NCBI GenBank assembly: GCA_017544805.1
Contig: JAFYDK010000013.1
Coordinates: 1 to 64,000, forward strand
Length of the DNA stretch: 64,000 nucleotides
Direction: 5' to 3'
From: Bacteroidales bacterium
GTDB lineage: Bacteria; Bacteroidota; Bacteroidia; Bacteroidales; UBA3824
The notes beneath the pieces are model-generated. The model was not told where the DNA came from. It saw only the letters and a program-made list of their open reading frames with translations, and made no database searches. Shown here in pieces: positions 15,090 to 63,647 of the stretch; the stretch's first letter is position 1, and each line of letters opens with the position of its first letter. Position numbers and translations under genes: made by a program.

Positions 15090-15875
15090 TTAAGCGTTAA
15101 AAAAATCGTTATGCGGGTTCCTTTTCCACCATAAAATCATAATTATACCGAAAAGCATACCGCCTAAATGTGCGAAATGTGCGATATTGTCGCCGCTGAA
15201 ATCATTAACACCGAAAAACAATTCGGCTGCACCGTACAAAAGTACAAAATATTTTGCTTTTATTCCAATCGGGATAAACATAAATTGTAATTTCATGTCG
15301 GGAAACATCATTCCGAAGGCTAATAACAATCCGAATACCGCTCCTGAAGCACCTACAACCGGTCTTGCCGTGAAATTTTCAGCGGCTTTGCTTACAATAT
15401 CTTTTATCGCTTGGGCGAAGTCGGGTGAATGTTGATAATTTGTTATAAAATCGTCCAAAAGTTGCATTTTGAACAAATAACTATGTTCAGCGGCAAAAGT
15501 CCTGAGTCCTTCAACCGTCGGATTTGCTATTAAAGCCTCTGCTGCCTCTTGAGCGGGAGCTATTTGATAATAGTTTACGAGCATATTAACGATTGCCGCA
15601 CCAAGTCCGCAAACGATATAATAAAACGAAAATCTTTTGCTGCCCCAGACAGATTCTATTATAGAGCCGAACTGATAAAGTGCAAACATATTGAAAAATA
15701 TATGCGTAAATCCGGAATGAACAAACATATACGTAAAAAACTGATACGGTTTGAATTGTTCACTTTTTATATAATAAAGAGCCAAAGCATCTGTGGCAGG
15801 AGGGTATGCCATGCAGATTACGAAAACTATGATATTAGTAATCAGCAAATATTTTGCACAAGGTGTTAGATTCAT
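15090..15875 (-). CDS. Rhomboid-family intramembrane serine protease (copy 1)
   Basis: 261 residues with the canonical motifs: HSGFTHIFFNMFALYQFG, the serine motif VVGASGAVFGLL, and the histidine helix NIAHFAHLGGMLFG. A loop of roughly 70 mostly polar residues (EAAEALIANPTVEGLRTFAA onward) is inserted between the third helix region and the serine motif, typical of Bacteroidota rhomboids. The start codon is next to the mutL stop, giving the order small protein, mutL, rhomboid 1, rhomboid 2 on the minus strand. Confidence 0.92.
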   Translation of the reverse strand: MNLTPCAKYLLITNIIVFVICMAYPPATDALALYYIKSEQFKPYQFFTYMFVHSGFTHIFFNMFALYQFGSIIESVWGSKRFSFYYIVCGLGAAIVNMLVNYYQIAPAQEAAEALIANPTVEGLRTFAAEHSYLFKMQLLDDFITNYQHSPDFAQAIKDIVSKAAENFTARPVVGASGAVFGLLLAFGMMFPDMKLQFMFIPIGIKAKYFVLLYGAAELFFGVNDFSGDNIAHFAHLGGMLFGIIMILWWKRNPHNDFFNA

Positions 15876-17696
15876 TTATAAAAATTTTTTTTCTATTTCG
15901 TCAATTGGTAAAATTACTACCGCAGTTTTTCCGTCCGGGGAAAAATTCGGCTCCGGCGTTGCAAAAAGCGAATCTATAAGCGAACTCATTTCTTCTGTTG
16001 AAAGTTGTCGTCCCGCTTTTATGGCTTTGCGCCTTGCAATGGATTTTGCCAAAACATCTTTTATCGATGATGACAAATCTCCGTGTCCGTCTTTGTAACT
16101 GTCAATGATGTCCGTTAAAATTTCGATGGCATCGTTTTGTTCTAAATACGTCGGAATTCCTTTTAACACAGGCTCTTGCATATCCGTAAAGTCAATGTCA
16201 AAACCGATACTCGTCAAAAAATCCCTTATGTCATAAGCCATAGTGGTTGATTGCGCATCTAATGAAAGTTTTTCGGGGTATAACAGCGATTGCGTATTGT
16301 CGGCATTGTTGTCGGCAACCTCCAAAAACTTGTTGTACAAAACTCTGTAATGCGCTCTGTATTGGTCAATTATCATCAAACCCGATTTTACGGGGCTTAC
16401 AATGTATTTCTCTTTTACTTGAAGAATTTTGTTGGACTCGTTAATGCTTTTTTGAGTCTCTAACGGTAGTTCCGCAATTTCTTCATTATTAGAGGTTTGA
16501 TACAATTTCTGCCAATTATCGAGATTGTTTTTTGCTCGGTAATCGGTGTATTGATTTTTGGATTCGTAATATTTTTTTTCGGTGCTTTCAAATGGGTTGT
16601 AAAACGGGTTGTAACTTACTTGAGGAGCCTCGGGCATCGGCGTATCTTTTGAAAAATACGGCATATCGGCAATTTGTGCATTGTCGAAATCCAGAGCCGG
16701 GGCAACGTCGTTTTTGTTGAGCGTTTCACGGATTCCCGCTTGAAGAAGTCGGAAAATATCTTGAGCGTTTTCAAAATTTATTTCCGTTTTTGTTGGGTGT
16801 ACATTAACGTCAATGGCGTGAGGGTCAATCTCAAAATACAAAAAATACGACGGTGCAGTATCGGGCAAAATCAGTTTGTCGTATGCCAACAAAACAGCTT
16901 TGTTGAAATACGGATTTTTCATGTAACGGTTGTTAACAAAAAAATACTGTTTGTCGTTACGTTTTTTAGCCGAAGATGGTTTGCCGGTAAATCCTGTGAT
17001 TTTTACGATTGAAGTGTCAATTTCGACTGGAATTAAATCCGCATTGAGATTTTTGCCGGCTATTGCAATGATTCTCTGTTTAAGACTTGCTTTGGGCAGA
17101 GAATAAATCATCTGCTCGTTGTGATAAAGCGAAAAGTCAATCATAGGATGTGTTAGCGCAACTCTCTGAAATTCTGTTATAATGTGTTGAAATTCAGTGG
17201 AATTGGCTTTTAAAAATTTGCGTCTTGCCGGAACGTTGAAAAAAAGCGATTTTACGGCAAAGTTAGTTCCTTTGGGCGTATTAATGGGAGTTTGACTTAT
17301 AAATTCCCCGCCGCTGAAAATAACTTGCGTTCCCATTTCATCGCATTCCTGACGTGTTTTGAGTTCGACCTCCGCAACCGAAGAAATCGAGGCTAAGGCT
17401 TCACCCCTAAAACCTTTCGTATAAATGCAAAAAAGGTCGTCAGTTTTGTAAATTTTACTTGTAGCATGGCGTTCAAAACTCATAAAAGCGTCTTTTTCGC
17501 TCATTCCGCAACCGTTATCGACGACCTGAATAAGCGTTCTTCCGGCATCTTTGATATTGACGGTGATTTTGTCAGCACCGGCATCTACCGAATTTTCAAC
17601 AAGTTCCTTTACGACGGAGGCAGGGCGTTGAATAACCTCACCCGCAGCAATCTGATTTGCCAATGCCTCCGGCATAAGTTTTATAATTTCCGCCAT
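15876..17696 (-). CDS. mutL: DNA mismatch repair protein MutL
   Basis: 606 residues from the ATG at 17696 (MAEIIKLMPEALANQ); the longer in-frame start at 17750 is not family-like. The GHKL ATPase motifs are intact: ELVENSVDAGA, DNGCGM and TKGFRGEALASISSV. The C-terminal domain has DQYRAHYRVLY where endonuclease-type MutL has a metal-binding DQHA-x2-E motif, and lacks the CPHGRP motif, so it probably does not nick DNA itself. It couples MutS mismatch recognition to downstream repair enzymes. The small gene just upstream is likely cotranscribed. Confidence 0.96.
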   Translation of the reverse strand: MAEIIKLMPEALANQIAAGEVIQRPASVVKELVENSVDAGADKITVNIKDAGRTLIQVVDNGCGMSEKDAFMSFERHATSKIYKTDDLFCIYTKGFRGEALASISSVAEVELKTRQECDEMGTQVIFSGGEFISQTPINTPKGTNFAVKSLFFNVPARRKFLKANSTEFQHIITEFQRVALTHPMIDFSLYHNEQMIYSLPKASLKQRIIAIAGKNLNADLIPVEIDTSIVKITGFTGKPSSAKKRNDKQYFFVNNRYMKNPYFNKAVLLAYDKLILPDTAPSYFLYFEIDPHAIDVNVHPTKTEINFENAQDIFRLLQAGIRETLNKNDVAPALDFDNAQIADMPYFSKDTPMPEAPQVSYNPFYNPFESTEKKYYESKNQYTDYRAKNNLDNWQKLYQTSNNEEIAELPLETQKSINESNKILQVKEKYIVSPVKSGLMIIDQYRAHYRVLYNKFLEVADNNADNTQSLLYPEKLSLDAQSTTMAYDIRDFLTSIGFDIDFTDMQEPVLKGIPTYLEQNDAIEILTDIIDSYKDGHGDLSSSIKDVLAKSIARRKAIKAGRQLSTEEMSSLIDSLFATPEPNFSPDGKTAVVILPIDEIEKKFL

Positions 17697-17721
17697 TTTT
17701 GTTTTTTGAGAAAAAATAAAA

Positions 17722-18009
17722 TTACATAAAACCGAAATATCTATTAACAAAATAGCAGATTAGCGACAAAATAACAACTAAAACAAAAACACGTAAATTG
17801 CTTTGTCTTAATTCTTTGTGCTGACGTTCATAACGGCGTCTGAAAGTGCCTTTTTGTATTAGTCTGACATCTTCCGTGCCTTCTTTACCGAGTTCTTTGT
17901 TGATTTCGTCTACTCTGCGGCTGATTTCGTCTTTCACGGGGTCGTAATACCTCGGAATGTATTGAAATTCATGAATTTTGTTTTCCGGAAAAAATCTTGG
18001 TAATCCCAT
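17722..18009 (-). CDS. Small conserved membrane protein upstream of mutL
   Basis: 95 residues from the ATG at 18009 (MGLPRFFPENKIHEFQYIP); an extra 12 residues from 18045 are possible but less convincing. The cytoplasmic part has a YIPRYYDPVKDEISRRVDEI segment followed by many Arg/Lys/Glu residues, and one transmembrane helix ends the protein (FVLVVILSLICYFV). Similar small proteins sit next to mutL in other Bacteroidota; the role is unknown. A -7-like box TATCTTTG lies at 18043-18050 on the minus strand. Confidence 0.75.
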   Translation of the reverse strand: MGLPRFFPENKIHEFQYIPRYYDPVKDEISRRVDEINKELGKEGTEDVRLIQKGTFRRRYERQHKELRQSNLRVFVLVVILSLICYFVNRYFGFM

Positions 18010-18105
18010 AGTGTTCCTAAATTTTAAAAAAGTTTTCAACCGCAAAGATAATTAATTTTTTTGATTGCAGCACAGCTCCCGCGCAAATCATTTTATGAAA
18101 AAAGA

Positions 18106-18642
18106 TTAAAAATTCGGGTCTGTTATGTCTTTTATTGTATCTTTGTCCATGATAACCAATACGTCATAAAATTCAAGAACTTTTTCGTCAGTGAATAGTT
18201 TTCCTTTCTCGCGCCAGAGAGAAAAGGTTGTAAAATCACCTTTTAAAACATAAATGTTGTCTTCTTTGGAATCTTTGAAGAATATATCCGCGCGGTATTT
18301 TTTGTTGTGATTATATTTGTTGTCGTTGAGTTTTAGATTTAGAACAGCTTTTTTTGTTTCTTTTGACGGTATGTGTATATAACAACTGTCTGAAAATAAG
18401 AGCTTTTCTTTGTCAGTTGTTTCGTATATCGAATATTTTGTGCAGACAAGTTCTTTTTTTGTTTTGTTCTTGATTTTCAGGAAAATATAATCTGCTGCAA
18501 CTTGTTTTAATTCAATCAGTTCAATCAGACTGTCGGCGGCTTTGGTTTCTTGTTTTTTGGAAATATTAACGGGCGTTTCGGGTATATTGTTCATACACGA
18601 AACGCTCATTATCAAAAAAAGTATTGAAATAATATTTTTCAT
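18106..18642 (-). CDS. Lipoprotein of unknown function
   Basis: 178 residues. The N-terminal signal ends IMSVS-C with Cys-16 as the lipidation site. The mature region alternates Lys/Asp with hydrophobic residues (for example YIFLKIKNKTKKELVC, KKAVLNLKLNDNKYN), consistent with an immunoglobulin-like beta sandwich, but no family signature is visible. It begins two bases after the broken trypsin-like gene ends, so both may have formed one transcript. Confidence 0.7.
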   Translation of the reverse strand: MKNIISILFLIMSVSCMNNIPETPVNISKKQETKAADSLIELIELKQVAADYIFLKIKNKTKKELVCTKYSIYETTDKEKLLFSDSCYIHIPSKETKKAVLNLKLNDNKYNHNKKYRADIFFKDSKEDNIYVLKGDFTTFSLWREKGKLFTDEKVLEFYDVLVIMDKDTIKDITDPNF

Positions 18643-18644
18643 TG

Positions 18645-18967
18645 TTAATATCGCTCTACTTCTAGACGTTTATTAATCATATATGCTTTTACGCATACAC
18701 CAAGTTTTTCACCGTTATATATAACAGACCCTCTGTTTATACCTACAGTATAACGTGTATTGGTACTTGATGTGTAAGAATAAACTAAACCACCGCTGTC
18801 TCCATGTTGTGATGTATATGTGGTGAGAATAACGTCTGATACGCTTGGCTTTTGTGGGGTGGGAATAGAAACAGAACTGAATTTCACCTTCCCTGATACT
18901 CTTCATCTGAATTACATGCCCCTAATAATGCAATAGCAGATAATGCACTAAAAAAAATTTTATTCAT
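18645..18967 (-). pseudogene. Remnant of a trypsin-like (S1) protease lipoprotein
   Basis: The ATG at 18967 opens a lipoprotein signal (MNKIFFSALSAIALLGAC, lipid Cys at residue 18) that stops after 27 residues at TGA (18884-18886). In the adjacent frame, beginning across GTG at 18887, an open stretch of 80 residues carries the S1 serine signature QHGDSGGLVYSY and a C-terminal beta strand region (YTVGINRGSVIYNG) down to 18645. A complete S1 domain is about 200 residues; the parts with the catalytic His and Asp are missing. The gene is therefore both frameshifted and internally deleted. Confidence 0.75.
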
Positions 18968-19071
18968 GTTATAAAAGTATTAAAATTTATTATTGCAAAG
19001 TAAAATATCTTTTTTTTGTAAAACAAATTTTTTTTGTGGAAAATGATTATATGTTTCATTTTTTTTATACG

Positions 19072-55860: not shown

Positions 55861-56928
55861 TTATTTCGTGTTAAGAATAGCCTTTTCGATATAATCGCCG
55901 ACTTCTTTCGTGCCGTATGCTTTACCTTCAGCGATGTCTTCTGTGCGGATACCGTCAAGGAGAGCTTTGTTTACGGCATCAGTAACGATTTGAGCCTCTT
56001 CTTTCAAACCGAATCCTGTTTCCAAAAGCATAGCAGCCGAAAGAATTGCAGCCATCGGGTTAGCGATGTTTTTGCCTGCCGCTTGAGGATATGAGCCGTG
56101 AATAGGTTCAAAGAGTGATGTGTAAACACCGATTGACGCACTCGGCATCAAGCCCATACTTCCGGTGATAACAGAAGCCTCGTCCGTTAAAATGTCGCCG
56201 AAAGTGTTTTCTGTTACCATAACGTCGAAATCTTTCGGTGTCGTAACAATTCTCATTGAGGCATTATCTACAAACATATATGAAGTTTCTACTTCGGGAT
56301 AATCTTTACTGATTCTCTGAGCTGTTTCCCTCCATAGTCTTGAAGATGCCAAAACGTTTGCCTTATCAACAACTAAAAGTTTTTTTCTGCGTTTCAAAGA
56401 AAGTTCGTAAGCGCATTTCAAAATTCTTTCAATCTCATAAACCGAATAAAGGTTTGTATCGAAAGCTGATTTGCCGTCTTCCGTGCGGCCTTTCATGCCG
56501 AAATACATTCCGCCGGTAAGTTCCCTTACTACAACGAAATCTGCACCGTCAACGATTTCTTTTTTTATCGGTGATTTGTGGATAAGGGCAGGAAAAGTAT
56601 AAATAGGACGGATATTAGCAAAAAGTTCAAGGCGTTTTCTGATAGCTAAAAGTCCTTGTTCGGGACGAACTTTTGCGTTCGGGTCGTTATCGTATTTAGG
56701 AGAACCGAATGCACCGAAAAGTACTGCATCAGATTTTTTACAAATATCAACCGTTTCATCGGGCATCGGATTGCCGCAGGCGTCAATCGCTGCTGCTCCG
56801 CCCAATACCGGAACGTATGTGAATTTATGACCTCTGATTTTTTCTATTGCCTGAAGTGCTTTTTGCGCTTCAGCAATTACCTCGGGACCTATGCCGTCGC
56901 CAGGTAACACTGCTATTTGTTTGTTCAT
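55861..56928 (-). CDS. leuB: 3-isopropylmalate dehydrogenase
   Basis: 355 residues. The isocitrate/isopropylmalate dehydrogenase start [20 protein letters not shown], the substrate-binding [28 protein letters not shown] and [17 protein letters not shown], and the C-terminal [20 protein letters not shown] are intact. It oxidises and decarboxylates 3-isopropylmalate with NAD in leucine synthesis. Its promoter is the left copy of a 43-bp direct repeat whose other copy drives the module-3 lipoprotein. No other leu gene is in the window. Confidence 0.96.
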
Positions 56929-56952
56929 TTTCGTATTAGAATTTGAAATATT

Positions 56953-56995
56953 ATTTTGCGCAAATTTAATTATAAAAATCTATTTTTCAAAGTTT
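56953..56995. repeat. 43-bp direct repeat, left copy (contains the leuB promoter)
   Basis: Perfectly identical to 59014-59056 over 43 bases, while flanking bases differ. The two copies bracket module 3 (2.0 kb between them). Confidence 0.95.
56961..56991 (-). promoter_or_regulatory. leuB promoter
   Basis: On the minus strand, TTTG (56988-56991), a 19-base spacer and TAAATTTG (56961-56968) match the Bacteroidota consensus exactly, 32 bases before the leuB start codon. Confidence 0.8.
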
Positions 56996-56997
56996 TT

Positions 56998-57750
56998 TTA
57001 TTCGCAAATTATTCTGGGTGGTTTTATTTCCGGACAAGGTGATTGTTCTCCGCATTGGTATTGAGAAAACCAATCAGCCAAAAAGTCTTGCGCCCATGGT
57101 CCGTATTCTGAGTCAAAAGTTAAAAATTCCTCGACTTTATCAGTTTTTGATGTTATTTTGTACATTTTATTAATGGCGTGATATATTATATATATATTCC
57201 CGTCGTAACCGTAAAACATATCGTTATATACAAAATATAATGATTTACTATTATAATTAGAATATAGTATATTAATATTTTCGTAATCGGGAGTACCGTT
57301 AATAATATTAACAGACATGACTTCTATTAAATTTCTGAGATCTTTTGTTTCTGTTTTACAGAAGTAGTATATTTTACTATTATCACGGGAAATTATGGAA
57401 TTAAGGATGTATGTATATGCAACCTCTTGGCGTGCATGAAGTATTAGTTCACTTTTCCTTACAAAATTACCTGTTTGCCTGTCAAAATCGCCGTAGCAAA
57501 CAATACTGTCGTATAGAAAATTAGCAGTATAATGTTTACAATCGCTTGATAAATGTATTTTTATATCGTGATTATTGGGATTGTTAATTTTTCTGTCAAT
57601 ATTAATAATCTCCTTAAACTCAACGCCTGAATTTGTTATCAGATATTTGTATATAATATCACTATCGTAAAATATCAGCCAAATATCGTTGCAATTGGAA
57701 TGATGCACTAAAATCCGATCAAATAAGAAAAAATTCTTTTCATTATTCAA
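56998..57750 (-). CDS. Second part of frameshifted beta-propeller-like protein B3
   Basis: 250 residues open from an internal ATG at 57750, but the gene really begins at 58163. Adding one A to the A10 tract at 57780-57789 (minus strand) joins the two frames into one 388-residue protein; KKK then reads on as IVEKVHSLNEL into NNEKNFF. The joined product aligns along its length with B2 (DIWLIFYDSDIIYKYLITNS against DKLWFITQENNKQFFTSYLI). It ends in a Cys/Pro-rich tail (QYQCGEQSPCPEIKPP) like that of B1. Whether this half is translated is unknown. Confidence 0.75.
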   Translation of the reverse strand: MNNEKNFFLFDRILVHHSNCNDIWLIFYDSDIIYKYLITNSGVEFKEIINIDRKINNPNNHDIKIHLSSDCKHYTANFLYDSIVCYGDFDRQTGNFVRKSELILHARQEVAYTYILNSIISRDNSKIYYFCKTETKDLRNLIEVMSVNIINGTPDYENINILYSNYNSKSLYFVYNDMFYGYDGNIYIIYHAINKMYKITSKTDKVEEFLTFDSEYGPWAQDFLADWFSQYQCGEQSPCPEIKPPRIICE

Positions 57751-57776
57751 TTCGTTTAATGAATGAACTTTTTCAA

Positions 57777-58163
57777 CTATTTTTTTTTTATTATATCAAT
57801 TAGTACATATTGTTTACCTCTAAATAAATAAACCATTTTATTATCTATAGGTGAAGGTACGAAAAATGTATTGTTGTGATCTTTAAATATATTATTTAGA
57901 TCTTCTATTTGTTCATTATTTCCGTCGTATAATATATCAAATTTTTCTATCAATTGAATTTTTCCGTCGGAATCAGTGTATAAGTGAGAACAGAATATGT
58001 CATCTTTTGCTTCGGGTTTTACAGGTTTTTTATTAAAATCAATAATATAATTACCTATACTCCAAATCGAAACGTGTTTGGATTGTGCAAATGTATATTG
58101 AAAAAAAATATTGAGGATTATAAAAATCCCCAATATTTTAAATATTAATCTTCTTCTTCCCAT
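57777..58163 (-). CDS. First part of frameshifted beta-propeller-like protein B3
   Basis: 128 residues with a signal peptide (ending QYTFAQ) and the family start SIWSIGNYIIDFNK, followed by DGKIQLIEKFDILYDGN and FFVPSPIDNKMVYLFRGKQY, which match B2 (DKDGNIIFQSENN; FVALDPINHNRYYIFYSD). The frame ends at TAG directly after an A10 tract, too early for a complete propeller. The start codon overlaps the end of the A3 lipoprotein gene by 19 bases. As it stands the product would be a short secreted fragment. Confidence 0.8.
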   Translation of the reverse strand: MGRRRLIFKILGIFIILNIFFQYTFAQSKHVSIWSIGNYIIDFNKKPVKPEAKDDIFCSHLYTDSDGKIQLIEKFDILYDGNNEQIEDLNNIFKDHNNTFFVPSPIDNKMVYLFRGKQYVLIDIIKKK

Positions 58164-58987
58164 TGTTCTAAAGTTAAGGTTCTCATTAAACGTATTCTAC
58201 AAAGTTCATTGGGATTATTTGATATATATAATGTCATTTTCCAATCCCTATTATCAATGCCAGGTAACATTACGGACATACCATATTTTTCTGTATTTTC
58301 ATGTTTATACACGTCTGCGTCAATCCACATTCTTTTAGTCAGAGTTTCTTCTCCTTCCATTTTTTGACAATAATTATAAAAATCTAAGTCCTTTTTGAAC
58401 ATATTGAATTGTAATTCATAATCTGCATCTGCGGGATCTGTATACATTGAATACAAATCATTAAAATCTTTTTCTGTAGGCAATCTAAATCCTTTTGCTT
58501 TCATATTATCGGGCAATCTGTAATGTCTTATATTAGTTTTAGATTTAGCAATTGGAAAATCCTCCGGCTTCATTTTATTTAAATCAACATCCCATTTGTA
58601 GAAATAGCCGTATTTCGTACCTTCCGGATCAAGTCCGCATATCGTATATCCATTTATGCAATTACTATGTAAATATTCAACAAACCATTCTTGAATAATT
58701 TTCGTATCAGCACTCATTAATTTTAGGGTTTTATATGTACATCCTCCTTTTCCATTACGGTCATAAAAAAAAACAGAACTTTCTTCGGCATAATGCATTT
58801 TTTTAGATACACATTTCCTTGTTGTGTCAAAGTTTAAGTATCTGACAATACTATCACAAGATGTTGTGGATTCGATACTATTATTAAATAAATTTGTTTC
58901 TGTGTCAATTTCTCTTTGACACGCAGTACCATACAGCATCGCAGATATAAATATTGCGAATGCTAAAAAAATACAAGTTTTTTTCAT
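58145..58987 (-). CDS. FISUMP-like lipoprotein A3
   Basis: 280 residues. The lipoprotein signal ends LYGTA-C (lipid Cys-23). The mature part has the fib_succ_major (FISUMP) pattern: GYFYKWDVDLNKMKPEDFP, then KGFRLPTEKDFNDLYSMYT, and a C-terminal CRIRLMRTL, which in paralogues reads SVRYVF. FISUMP domains occur in many exported proteins of Bacteroidota and Fibrobacter; their role is not settled. It is the first gene of module 3, driven by a promoter identical to that of leuB, and overlaps B3 by 19 bases. Confidence 0.85.
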   Translation of the reverse strand: MKKTCIFLAFAIFISAMLYGTACQREIDTETNLFNNSIESTTSCDSIVRYLNFDTTRKCVSKKMHYAEESSVFFYDRNGKGGCTYKTLKLMSADTKIIQEWFVEYLHSNCINGYTICGLDPEGTKYGYFYKWDVDLNKMKPEDFPIAKSKTNIRHYRLPDNMKAKGFRLPTEKDFNDLYSMYTDPADADYELQFNMFKKDLDFYNYCQKMEGEETLTKRMWIDADVYKHENTEKYGMSVMLPGIDNRDWKMTLYISNNPNELCRIRLMRTLTLEQWEEED

Positions 58988-59013
58988 TATATTTGGGTAT
59001 TAAATTAATAATA

Positions 59014-59056
59014 ATTTTGCGCAAATTTAATTATAAAAATCTATTTTTCAAAGTTT
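59014..59056. repeat. 43-bp direct repeat, right copy (promoter of A3)
   Basis: Identical to 56953-56995. It lies between the B2 stop codon (14 bases away) and the A3 start codon. Confidence 0.95.
59022..59052 (-). promoter_or_regulatory. Promoter of the A3-B3 module
   Basis: TTTG (59049-59052), a 19-base spacer and TAAATTTG (59022-59029) on the minus strand; the same bases as the leuB promoter, 34 bases before the A3 start codon. Confidence 0.78.
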
Positions 59057-59069
59057 AAATTAGAAAAAG

Positions 59070-60443
59070 TTAATCCTTTTCGTACAACTTTGGCTGACGG
59101 ATTGTGTTGCGGATTGTAATCTCTTTTTCTAAACTTTTGGTTTCTTCGTCTGAAAAAACGATATCAAGTTTTACCTTATAAGTTCCGTCTTTTTGATATG
59201 TATGCTTAGGATTTTTATCATTAGAAAATGTCCCGTCTCCGAAATCCCACTTTAAACTCTTATAGTTGTATCCTCGGTAGTAAAAATTAGTTCCTATACA
59301 CCCTTCTGTTTGGTATAGAAAATTAGGAGACATGCGCAGAAAACGCGGAAATATTGATATTCCATTAAACTTTTTGGGAACTTCCAGCGCATTAAAATGA
59401 AAAATAGGATTCTCTGAATCACAATTTTCTATTTTAGAAATATATCTGTTATCCTCTCCGCAAAGTAAATAAATATTACCGTTTGAAGATAACTTCATAT
59501 CTGCAATAGCAATATCATTCCAATTTGCAGGTATTTCCTTTTCATATATTTTTTTGCACAAAATTTTCCCTTCTAATAGTTCAGAAGCATTATAACGAAA
59601 AACAGATATTTTGTTTATCCCGTTTTCTTTCGTTTTGAGGGCTGTAAACAAATATTTTCCTGAAGGAGAAAACTCAAAAACATTACACTTTACATCAATA
59701 GGTAATTCAATATAATCGCTTAAAATGCCGGAGATATTATCAAACCCGTAACTTACAATTTTACGATTTTGGAGTATAAAAATTCTATCAAATTCCGGTG
59801 ATATGCGCAAAAACGTTGTCGGAGTAAAAATATGATTTTCATTATAGGGTGATTCAACCTCTCTTATGATTTCACCGTCAGAAATTAAATAACTTGTAAA
59901 GAATTGTTTATTATTTTCTTGTGTAATGAACCACAATTTATCAAACTCATTATTCGGCATAATGCAAAGAAAGTAGTGAGAATTTATACCATTCTTTTGG
60001 GTAATATTTTTGATTTTTTTCTCCTCAACGGAAATAATACCGTCTTTATATGTTACTATATTGTAACTTAAAATAAGACTATTTCCATGAACGGTACTAC
60101 TATTAAGGTCGGAATAAAAAATATAATAGCGGTTGTGATTTATAGGATCTAATGCAACAAATGAATTTGCCCTAAAATAATTATTTTCAGACTGAAAAAT
60201 AATATTTCCGTCTTTATCATAAATTAATCCCGCCAATCCGTAAAAAATAATATTTCCGTCTTTGTCAGAAACTGAATATCTCCCAAAATTCCCAATAACA
60301 GACGGTATATTAATTTGATGAAATTTTTCATTCTCCGAATCAAATATTAAATTGTTGTTCCCTATCGTCCAATTATTAAATTCCTTTTGGGCATAAGAAC
60401 AAATAGATAACAACAATAAGACTATAGAAAACAACAATTTCAT
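59070..60443 (-). CDS. Secreted beta-propeller plus PKD-domain protein B2
   Basis: 457 residues with a signal peptide (ending SICSYAQ). The N-terminal NNWTIGNNNLIFDSENEKF and SVSDKDGNIIFYGLAGLIYD belong to the propeller-like region found at the start of many Bacteroidota PKD proteins; later blades are FEFSPSGKYLFTAL and ADMKLSSNGNIYLLCGED. The C-terminus adds a PKD domain (SLKWDFGDGTFSNDKNPKHT; GTYKVKLDIVF) absent from B1 and B3. It is the only complete long B protein, eight bases after A2. No type IX secretion tail is visible. Confidence 0.88.
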   Translation of the reverse strand: MKLLFSIVLLLLSICSYAQKEFNNWTIGNNNLIFDSENEKFHQINIPSVIGNFGRYSVSDKDGNIIFYGLAGLIYDKDGNIIFQSENNYFRANSFVALDPINHNRYYIFYSDLNSSTVHGNSLILSYNIVTYKDGIISVEEKKIKNITQKNGINSHYFLCIMPNNEFDKLWFITQENNKQFFTSYLISDGEIIREVESPYNENHIFTPTTFLRISPEFDRIFILQNRKIVSYGFDNISGILSDYIELPIDVKCNVFEFSPSGKYLFTALKTKENGINKISVFRYNASELLEGKILCKKIYEKEIPANWNDIAIADMKLSSNGNIYLLCGEDNRYISKIENCDSENPIFHFNALEVPKKFNGISIFPRFLRMSPNFLYQTEGCIGTNFYYRGYNYKSLKWDFGDGTFSNDKNPKHTYQKDGTYKVKLDIVFSDEETKSLEKEITIRNTIRQPKLYEKD

Positions 60444-60451
60444 ATTAAGTT

Positions 60452-61425
60452 CTATTTTACACGTATATATATAGGGTCAAAAACATAACGAACAGAAAAA
60501 CCATAACTTTTGGAATAACTGCCGAAATATGCTCTGTAATCATATATTTCTTCAGTATCAAACCATACATATCTCCGCTGGATTATGAAAGGAGAATTGC
60601 CGGTTTTGTTTGTCTTACCTGCAGTCCAAAAAGTTCCTCTATTATTTAAATCCGCATAAATACCGTTTATATAATAATCCGATGGTTTTTCTGAATATGC
60701 AGTATTTCTCCAACCACCCAATGTATGATATGTAGATTCATCATCACTGCAACCATCTTCAATACCTGCAATAAAGGCATCAAAATAAAATTCATCTGAG
60801 AATTCTCTATTGTACGTTAAATCATACGCTCTTTCATCAACATAATTAGGAAATTCACCCGTAATTTCAAGAATGTCTAAAAAATCTCGAAGTTCCGGTA
60901 ATCTTCCGGAAACAGAAAATTTTTTACCGGGATATACCTCCGTTATAGAATCTGATTTATACATAGGAACTCTCATTTTTATTTTGCTGCTAAGTTTATC
61001 GGCTGTTTCCCAATTATATAATCTGCCATAAACGGGTACGTTTTTTTCATCATCAGCAAACACCCAGCAACCGTCATTAGATTTTATACTCAAATTTTCC
61101 AACATTATATAGAAAAAACCTTTAGATGCTTTTCTATTAACTTTCATAACCAAATACTTAATAGATTTGTCATTAACATAATACGCCGTATCGGTTTCTA
61201 TGAAATCAGATAAATCAAAATCATACCCTTTAGACAGCTTCTTGTTCTGATTTTTACGAATGTAAAACTTCCATTCCATACGTTTTCCGTTAATTGTCAA
61301 AATGGAATCTGTTGATTGCTCAATAACCGATTGAGATATAGTTTCAGTCTCTTTTTCGCAAGAGTAAAGCGTGAAAGCGGCAACATAACTATTGCGGCTT
61401 TCAAAAGTATAAAATACTTTTTCAT
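60452..61425 (-). pseudogene. FISUMP-like lipoprotein A2, frameshifted in its signal peptide
   Basis: The start at 61425 (MKKYFILLKAAIVM) matches A1, but one A is missing from the GGCAAACAT stretch kept in A1 (here GGCAACAT near 61379-61386), so the frame ends after 42 residues. From about 61300 the FISUMP frame is open to 60452 (282 residues: RLYNWETADKLSSKIKMRVP, SGRLPELRDFLDIL, YGFSVRYVF). Restoring one base gives a 324-residue lipoprotein. Without it the protein would lack its signal unless a downstream start is used. Sequencing error is possible but not needed. Confidence 0.75.
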
Positions 61426-61510
61426 ATTATTAGTTATTTAATTAAAAATTCCGCTGTAAATATAATATGAAAAAAAATACAAAACAATAACCCTTTCGGG
61501 TAGTTTTTTT
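61265..61510. repeat. 246-bp direct repeat, copy at the 5' end of A2
   Basis: Aligned to 63375-63621 with four substitutions and one single-base indel (the A2 frameshift). It covers, on the minus strand, a small ACCC-GAAA-GGGT hairpin, the promoter region, start codon and about the first 53 codons. Sequence outside the block is clearly divergent. Confidence 0.92.
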
Positions 61511-61514
61511 TGTT

Positions 61515-62594
61515 TTAATCACAAACTTTAATTGATGGAGTCTTCATTTTGCAATATATCGCCATGTCATGAAATAATTGGTTCGGGCAATAACATTTCA
61601 TATTAGAATATTTGGAAGGAGGTATTTCTAATATTTTTTCCATATATACAATTTTATTATTTTCGGGATTTTTTATGCAATCAACTTTACCGTTATCTCT
61701 AATCAAATAAATATTACCATCTGCAGCTAATTTCATAGTTAAAAGATTATATTCGTAGTCATACGCAAACTCTTTTACAACTTCTGGGGAATTGTCTTTT
61801 TTAGAAACATCATATCTCAAAACCGTTGAACCGTTAAAAATAATCAAATATTTCCCCGATTCAGATACTGCAAAATCATAAACATTAGAACAAACAAGAC
61901 CACAGTTTATTAAATTAATATTCTCAAAATCAAAATTAAATTTAAAAACCTGTTTTTCTCTCAAATAATAATAATTTTCGTAACTATCTCTGCATAAGTG
62001 ATTATACTCTGTAAGCGAAATAGTTATTCCTGCATCACACACACCCCTTAAAATCATTTTGTCACCTTTTATTTCATAAATTTCTGCTTCACTGGTTTCA
62101 TAGAAAAATGATAAAACAAAAACTCTTTTGTTTTTATAATCAGGGATTGCCCAAATATTACTGATTCTCTTTTTTACAGAAATCTCACTTTTGCTCAAAA
62201 CGTAATTATCCTTATTAGATATATCAAAAATGATATGATATAATTTTGTGTCTTTTGATTCATAAAAACTATAAAAATAATGAAAAATATTCATATCTAA
62301 TATATCTTGCACCAAAATACCCGAACCGAAACGATATTTGTTATTCAAAAGGCAATTCATTTCCGCATCATATATTTTCCGCATTGAGCCGAACAAAATT
62401 AATTCTTCATTTCGATCACAAATACAAAAACCTCCTAAAGCAATATCAAAATTTTCAGGGAGTTGTAAAACTCCCTGAAAACCTATTTTATTAAACTTTA
62501 ATATATAATTTCTCGTAGGCCACCACTCAGCACCATATTGCGCATAGGATTTACTAAACACAAAAAGCAAGACGGCGAGTGAAAAAGTTTTCAT
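61515..62594 (-). CDS. Secreted beta-propeller-like protein B1
   Basis: 359 residues with a signal peptide (ending SKSYAQ). The start EWWPTRNYILKFNKIGFQG and CDRNEELILFGSMRKIYDAE correspond to the propeller start of B2; blade-like segments continue (DFAVSESGKYLIIFNGSTVL; LTMKLAADGNIYLIRDNG). It has no PKD domain and ends in a cysteine-containing tail (CYCPNQLFHDMAIYCKM). It starts nine bases after A1 and is intact. Confidence 0.85.
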   Translation of the reverse strand: MKTFSLAVLLFVFSKSYAQYGAEWWPTRNYILKFNKIGFQGVLQLPENFDIALGGFCICDRNEELILFGSMRKIYDAEMNCLLNNKYRFGSGILVQDILDMNIFHYFYSFYESKDTKLYHIIFDISNKDNYVLSKSEISVKKRISNIWAIPDYKNKRVFVLSFFYETSEAEIYEIKGDKMILRGVCDAGITISLTEYNHLCRDSYENYYYLREKQVFKFNFDFENINLINCGLVCSNVYDFAVSESGKYLIIFNGSTVLRYDVSKKDNSPEVVKEFAYDYEYNLLTMKLAADGNIYLIRDNGKVDCIKNPENNKIVYMEKILEIPPSKYSNMKCYCPNQLFHDMAIYCKMKTPSIKVCD

Positions 62595-62603
62595 AATAAA
62601 TAA

Positions 62604-63536
62604 TTAATTTTTTTTCTTATTTACATAACGTGGCTCAAAAACACAACGAATTGTATGTCCGAATGAATTTGCGGCCAGAGAATTTATAAATGCAGAATAA
62701 TTCAAAACATCAGTTTCAGTATGAGTTTCTTTTGCAAAACGGAATTCATAATGAGCTTTTTTAATGAAATCGACCCCGTCATCCATCCAATAATATCCTG
62801 CTTTATTAAGCCCTGTATAACCTCCGCCTCCTAATCTATTGCCACTCAATACCGAATGTCCTTTCGATAAATCGCCATCCGCATCCTCAACACCAAATAC
62901 GAAAGTGTCAAAATAGAATGAACCCCATTTTTCATAATCAGATTCTGCATGATATCCACATGTTGGTAAATTTCCGATAGTTTCTGCCTCAATAATATCC
63001 AAAACATCTTCAGTATTCAATAACCGTCCAGGAGTCCCAACACTCTTTGCTATAACATTACCGTCAGTATCATATACGGGTAATTTCATATTTATTTTTT
63101 TTGCTAACGCATGCCCCGAATTCCATGTATACATACGTCCATATTTGGATACATAACTTTCATCATTTTTGTAAGCCCAACATGCGGTGTCTAATTCTAT
63201 ATCAAGATTTTCTATCATAATATAAAAATACCTTTCTGAATTTCTTCTCCGTACTTTCATTGTTGTATAACGCTTAGAAGGATCTTGCGTGTAATAGGCA
63301 GTTCCAAATTCTAAGCCTAAGTCTGACGTATTCATGTGAAATCCTTTTGAAAGTTTATTTCCATTTTTCAAATTAAACTTCCATTCCATACGTTTCCCGT
63401 TAATTGTCAAAATGGAATCTGTTGATTGCTCAATAACCGATTGAGATACAGTTTCAGTCTCTTTTTCGCAAGAGTAAAGCGTGAAAGCGGCAAACATAAC
63501 TATTGCGGCTTTCAAAAGTATAAAATACTTTTTCAT
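62604..63536 (-). CDS. FISUMP-like lipoprotein A1
   Basis: 310 residues and the intact reference for this set. The signal ends TLYS-C (lipid Cys-23), followed by EKETETVSQSVIEQSTDS. The FISUMP pattern is YGRMYTWNSGHALAKKINMK, GTPGRLLNTEDVLDIIEAET and a C-terminal SFGHTIRCVFEPRYV. Its first 53 or so codons and upstream region are shared nearly identically with A2. It opens module 1 and is directly followed by B1. Confidence 0.88.
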   Translation of the reverse strand: MKKYFILLKAAIVMFAAFTLYSCEKETETVSQSVIEQSTDSILTINGKRMEWKFNLKNGNKLSKGFHMNTSDLGLEFGTAYYTQDPSKRYTTMKVRRRNSERYFYIMIENLDIELDTACWAYKNDESYVSKYGRMYTWNSGHALAKKINMKLPVYDTDGNVIAKSVGTPGRLLNTEDVLDIIEAETIGNLPTCGYHAESDYEKWGSFYFDTFVFGVEDADGDLSKGHSVLSGNRLGGGGYTGLNKAGYYWMDDGVDFIKKAHYEFRFAKETHTETDVLNYSAFINSLAANSFGHTIRCVFEPRYVNKKKN

Positions 63537-63621
63537 ATTATTAGTTATTTAATTAAAAATTTCGCTGTAAATATAATATGAAAAAAAATACAAAACAATA
63601 CCCCTTTCGGGTAGTTTTTTT
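63375..63621. repeat. 247-bp direct repeat, copy at the 5' end of A1
   Basis: Partner of 61265-61510; it retains the extra A that keeps the A1 signal peptide in frame. The hairpin TACCC-GAAAG-GGGTA at its upstream end lies just after the folate-enzyme gene and may terminate it. Confidence 0.92.
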
Positions 63622-63647
63622 AGTAAAAATTCAAAGTTTTTTATGGC

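Follow-up and report, generated by a model that had tools for sequence, protein, structure and literature searches.

The window analysed here is a 64,000-nt stretch of DNA from a rumen-type Bacteroidales bacterium (genome G000, a 3.05-Mb assembly). Towards one end it carries leuB and three modules, all on the minus strand, each module pairing a FISUMP-like lipoprotein gene (A) with a beta-propeller gene (B). Module 1 consists of A1 (62604..63536) and B1 (61515..62594), and module 2 of A2 (60452..61427) and B2 (59070..60443), the latter encoding a beta-propeller plus PKD protein. A2 has an open frame only at 60452-61300; a 1-nt deletion in its signal-peptide region, at ~61380, relative both to A1 and to the sister species G016, breaks the 5' end of the gene. 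Module 3 consists of A3 (58145..58987; 280 aa) and B3 (56998..58163), which overlap by 19 nt, and lies upstream of leuB (55861..56928), the gene for 3-isopropylmalate dehydrogenase (Pfam Iso_dh, E 7e-125). B3 was at first read as one frame and is in fact two, 57777-58163 and 56998-57750, with a frameshift at a run of ten A residues on the minus strand (57780-57789). This run is identical in G016, and one extra A would fuse both frames; it could be a slippage site, a phase-variation site or the mark of an old pseudogene. A terminator-like hairpin lies at the A3/B3 boundary (58105-58139), within the start of B3. The stretch from B3 to leuB yielded no terminator-like site, and transcripts from the A3 promoter may therefore continue into leuB.

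The A proteins are lipoprotein-like, and their FISUMP matches are weak but recurrent. Since the best scores fall below the curated cut-offs (29.9 bits vs 41.65 for TIGR02145; 25.6 vs 33.9 for PF09603), we call them FISUMP-like only. The B proteins are beta-propellers, some with PKD domains. In profile searches they match collagenase PKD domains as well as an archaeal surface-layer protein, 1l0q, which is also the top fold match of the predicted B2 model (pLDDT 77). The predicted A3 model was poor (pLDDT 46) and was left out of the analysis. Judged from these features, the proteins are most likely cell-surface binding proteins. PADLOC returned no match for A1, B1, B2 or A3, and we rejected the idea that the modules are a defence system. 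Only two clear full-length A matches beyond the genus were found in an order-wide search (G183 and G052). The best relatives of A3 are 31% identical and lie in other genomes, and module 3 has no known donor copy. Module 3 holds A3 and B3 only, neither with a family match to an integrase or transposase, and none was seen among the neighbours, which were judged by eye.

Module 3 sits between two copies of a 43-bp direct repeat. The right copy (56953..56995, minus strand) precedes leuB and starts 2 nt past the stop codon of B3; the left copy (59014..59056, minus strand) precedes A3 and starts 13 nt past the stop codon of B2. As the original prediction held, the copies are identical (43/43; 45/46 when extended to 56950-56995 and 59011-59056) and their flanks are unlike. 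BLAST does extend a weak 69-bp, 88% alignment of both copies to the start codons; beyond the 43 bp, the likeness of the A3 and leuB 5' UTRs is no better than chance when set against other upstream regions, and we rejected homology there. A search of the window and the whole assembly, allowing up to 3 mismatches, found these two copies only, which rules out a dispersed repeat; shuffled sequences gave no match. On the minus strand both copies read AAACTTTG-AAAAATAGATTTTTATAAT-TAAATTTGCGCAAAA, that is, TTTG-N19-TAAATTTG. Bacteroidota promoters are recognised by a TTTG some 19 nt ahead of a TAnnTTTG box in front of a gene, and this arrangement is present in both copies, 26 nt before the ATG of A3 and 24 nt before that of leuB. 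Both copies are thus predicted Bacteroidota-type promoters, one ahead of each gene, in agreement with what had been proposed.

We then asked whose promoter this is. We compared the repeat with 1,463 distinct TAnnTTTG sites from the genus loci, both strands included. With its own two copies set aside, it is matched best by the leuB promoter in G001 (30/43 positions), which bears out the claimed leuB identity of the repeat. We therefore treat the leuB copy as ancestral and the A3 copy as derived from it, a polarity that has one informative relative, G001, behind it. In the remaining relatives examined, leuB is preceded by a single, more diverged region, and the upstream neighbours are different.

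The sister species G016 is colinear with G000 and 95.4% identical over window positions 1-61513; both genomes are draft assemblies in 130-140 contigs each. Gene order in G016 is the same (B2, A3, B3, leuB), and in this one available relative module 3 likewise has both flanking repeats. Its A3 copy is identical to that of the window and its leuB copy has one substitution, so the two are 42/43 alike. None of the genomes searched has B2, one promoter copy and leuB in succession, the exact empty site for module 3; relatives carry other genes upstream of leuB. Removal of module 3 by recombination between the 43-bp copies would be possible. The lower length limit for RecA recombination is near 43 bp, and loss by this route would therefore be rare; no loss of module 3 was seen.

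The only large difference between G000 and G016 in the window is module 1, which has no counterpart in G016. It lies between 250-bp repeats that are 98% alike (right copy, 61265..61513; left copy, 63375..63624; both minus strand) and that contain the intergenic region and approximately the first 50 codons of A2, the right copy being the intergenic region with the A2 5' end. The right copy starts 1 nt past the B1 stop codon. At the corresponding site G016 has a single repeat copy and no module. The two copies are 2% apart and each is about 6% from the G016 copy, which fits insertion in the G000 lineage after the split and suggests that module 1 was gained in G000 rather than lost in G016, although gene conversion between the copies could mimic this pattern.

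To place these two cases in context, we surveyed 30 A-B pairs (~24 distinct loci) in the genus alongside 366 other gene units from the same loci, scoring flanking direct repeats of at least 40 bp and 85% identity. Such repeats flank 9 of the 30 pairs and 3 of the 366 controls (Fisher p ~2e-6, or ~2e-4 without both window loci), the controls being mostly core genes, so that other recently gained genes might show an equal signature. Six of the ~24 loci are independent and repeat-flanked, with repeats of 43-250 bp: the leuB locus of G000 and G016 (43 bp); an FCL gene locus, that of module 1 (250 bp); a uvrC locus (58 bp; contigs G000:C95 and G016:C70); an AraC-like gene locus (184 bp; G001:C83); a gene Y locus (~120 bp; G002:C18); and an nqrF-like gene locus (67 + 42 bp, decayed; G001:C182). 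The names uvrC, nqrF and FCL were assigned by sequence inspection. At the gene Y locus the duplication covers the promoter of the downstream gene Y together with its first 18 nt. This piece is single-copy in G012, G011 and G008; Y comes directly after gene X in G012 and G008, and G011 has two small genes in between. The AraC-locus repeat takes in 26 nt of the divergent AraC-like gene, and the nqrF-locus repeat holds the 3' end of the nqrF-like gene. At the leuB, Y, AraC and nqrF loci the repeat consists of local target DNA. The FCL and uvrC repeats resemble terminator-plus-promoter spacers and could belong to the modules themselves. No flanking repeat was found for the other 21 of the 30 pairs.

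Several further arrangements were seen among these loci. In G000:C67 (L171), a B-A-B array at 15302-19014 answers to a single B in G016:C94 (L172), and the only large indel between the two contigs is a B-A unit with 1.34-kb repeats. The modules of G004:C7 (L240) and G009:C79 (L241) carry a third gene of 247 aa and have further A gene remnants nearby; next to the G009:C48 module lies a comparable gene of 244 aa, with a match to LuxR-type HTH and a weak one to PAS. At G004:C2 (L235), parts of the repeat belong to a dispersed palindromic element (249 bp), found many times in G004 and G014 and less often in G009. This locus was omitted from the independent loci for that reason, and we also dropped its layout as proof of a circular intermediate. 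The same G004:C2 module is 99.2% identical over 2.4 kb to that of G009:C21 (L236), with flanks mostly 74-91% identical, and looks like a sign of recent transfer between species. The high-similarity tract extends beyond the module by a few hundred bases on each side, into both neighbours, so that transfer by homologous recombination via the flanks is the straightforward interpretation.

Taken together, these observations make it probable that A-B modules are accessory cassettes that enter by insertion with long target duplication, and that module 3 was inserted in this way ahead of leuB in the common ancestor of G000 and G016. The target DNA, which is often a promoter region, would then lie on either side of the new genes; with the leuB promoter duplicated, A3-B3 would have been given a ready-made promoter and leuB would have retained its own. 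Long direct repeats lie right beside the inserted genes (43/43 at module 3, 250 bp at module 1, and six of the ~24 loci in all). Relatives with one copy and no insert were found for module 1 (G016) and for the gene Y locus (G012 and G008, and G011 with its two other small genes), but none for module 3. The repeat is target sequence and not a fixed insert end, as indicated by the leuB promoter of G001 and by the parts of neighbouring genes at other loci. The signature could equally come from template switching back upstream of the point of departure, from filling of a long staggered break or from single-crossover integration of a circle, and survivor bias may add to it, since a promoter duplication would spare the resident gene and supply the newcomer. 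From the sequence we infer three things: module 3 came in by insertion, the two copies of the promoter are both active, and recombination between them could excise the module. The original prediction that module 3 entered with duplication of the leuB promoter is therefore upheld by the G001 polarity, the G016 layout and the recurrence of the signature, with single-copy states, at other A-B modules; its companion claim, that the module can leave in the same manner, is compatible with the sequence only, module 3 being present in both species compared. Insertion would also require decay or another entry route for the 21 pairs that have no repeat.

The layout could instead have arisen by tandem duplication in place of a unit of A, B and promoter, after which the gene bodies diverged and the promoters were kept alike by selection or gene conversion. 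The modules do lie head to tail, A1 and A2 are 36% alike with a 98% identical 5' part, and the B-A-B array of G000:C67 with its 1.34-kb repeats is comparable; for modules 1 and 2 such an origin is possible. For module 3 we consider it unlikely. A3 matches A2 only marginally (24%, E 0.035) and A1 not at all below E 0.2, its closest relatives being in other genomes, and B3 is ~21-23% like B1 and B2, yet the promoters agree at 43/43 positions. Moreover, the repeat belongs to the leuB promoter, not to that of module 2, and repeats elsewhere contain pieces of unrelated neighbours.

In another scenario, module 3 came in with no duplication, and gene conversion or another small copying event later overwrote its promoter with that of leuB. 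In its favour, the repeat ends fall roughly at the limits of the promoter, and the identity is confined to it. Conversion of 43 bp between unlike regions would require starting homology, however, and the layout recurs where the repeat exceeds a promoter alone, taking in the nqrF-like 3' end or the starts of genes; we regard overwriting as quite improbable. An assembly artefact, with a short repeat joining unrelated contigs, is suggested by the fragmented state of the drafts and by a repeat length, 43 bp, of k-mer size. We give it hardly any credence: the layout recurs in G016, a separate genome at ~95% identity in which one repeat copy has diverged, and repeats elsewhere reach 250 bp and carry substitutions.

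If insertion with long target duplication is the correct reading, newly arrived surface-protein genes could be placed under a housekeeping promoter at no cost to the resident gene, and the pattern would help explain why A-B gene sets differ between close species. The survey would also provide a set of comparable loci, some with single-copy states, for a little-studied kind of insertion in gut bacteria. A stronger proposal is that the FISUMP-propeller pairs of this Bacteroidales family are a dedicated class of mobile cassettes for surface proteins. They would travel from locus to locus and from species to species by a specific mechanism in which 43-250 bp of target, often a promoter, is duplicated, so that the cassette gains a working promoter and the neighbour is undamaged. 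This is conceivable, but on balance we doubt it.

Several known systems resemble these modules in part. Integrative elements with att sites share with module 3 a pair of direct repeats, some tens of bases long, around the insert, one of the two being target sequence; unlike these elements, the A-B modules have no identified integrase, recombinase or transposase, and the sequence and length of the repeat (43-250 bp) vary by locus. Fib_succ_major proteins count among the variable proteins of diversity-generating retroelements (PMC4159848), and the A proteins match this family (FISUMP/Fib_succ_major; TIGR02145, PF09603) weakly, below the curated cut-offs. No reverse transcriptase match was found in G016, and the one in G000 is on another contig, so such diversification of the A genes is not indicated. 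Transposed genes in Arabidopsis and Drosophila, like the A-B modules, have target DNA repeated directly on both sides, where the orthologous empty site carries it once, and a circle-integration model has been put forward for them (PMC2869330); those are eukaryotic cases with the donor site known in several, whereas the A-B modules have no known donor. The closest resemblance is to insertion with long target duplication in Helicobacter pylori (Nobusato, Uchiyama, Ohashi and Kobayashi, 2000, Gene 259:99, as cited in PMC1643837, PMC3154945 and PMC4978471). As these later papers describe it, that system shares transposase-free genes, a target duplicated as a long flanking direct repeat and a single-copy state in related genomes. 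By the same accounts its cargo is mostly restriction-modification genes, whereas the Bacteroidales modules carry a lipoprotein gene with a beta-propeller gene, and what they duplicate is often a promoter region. This kind of event has already been described in other bacteria; in the present case the cargo is surface proteins, and the wider pattern is of more interest than the single repeat pair upstream of leuB.
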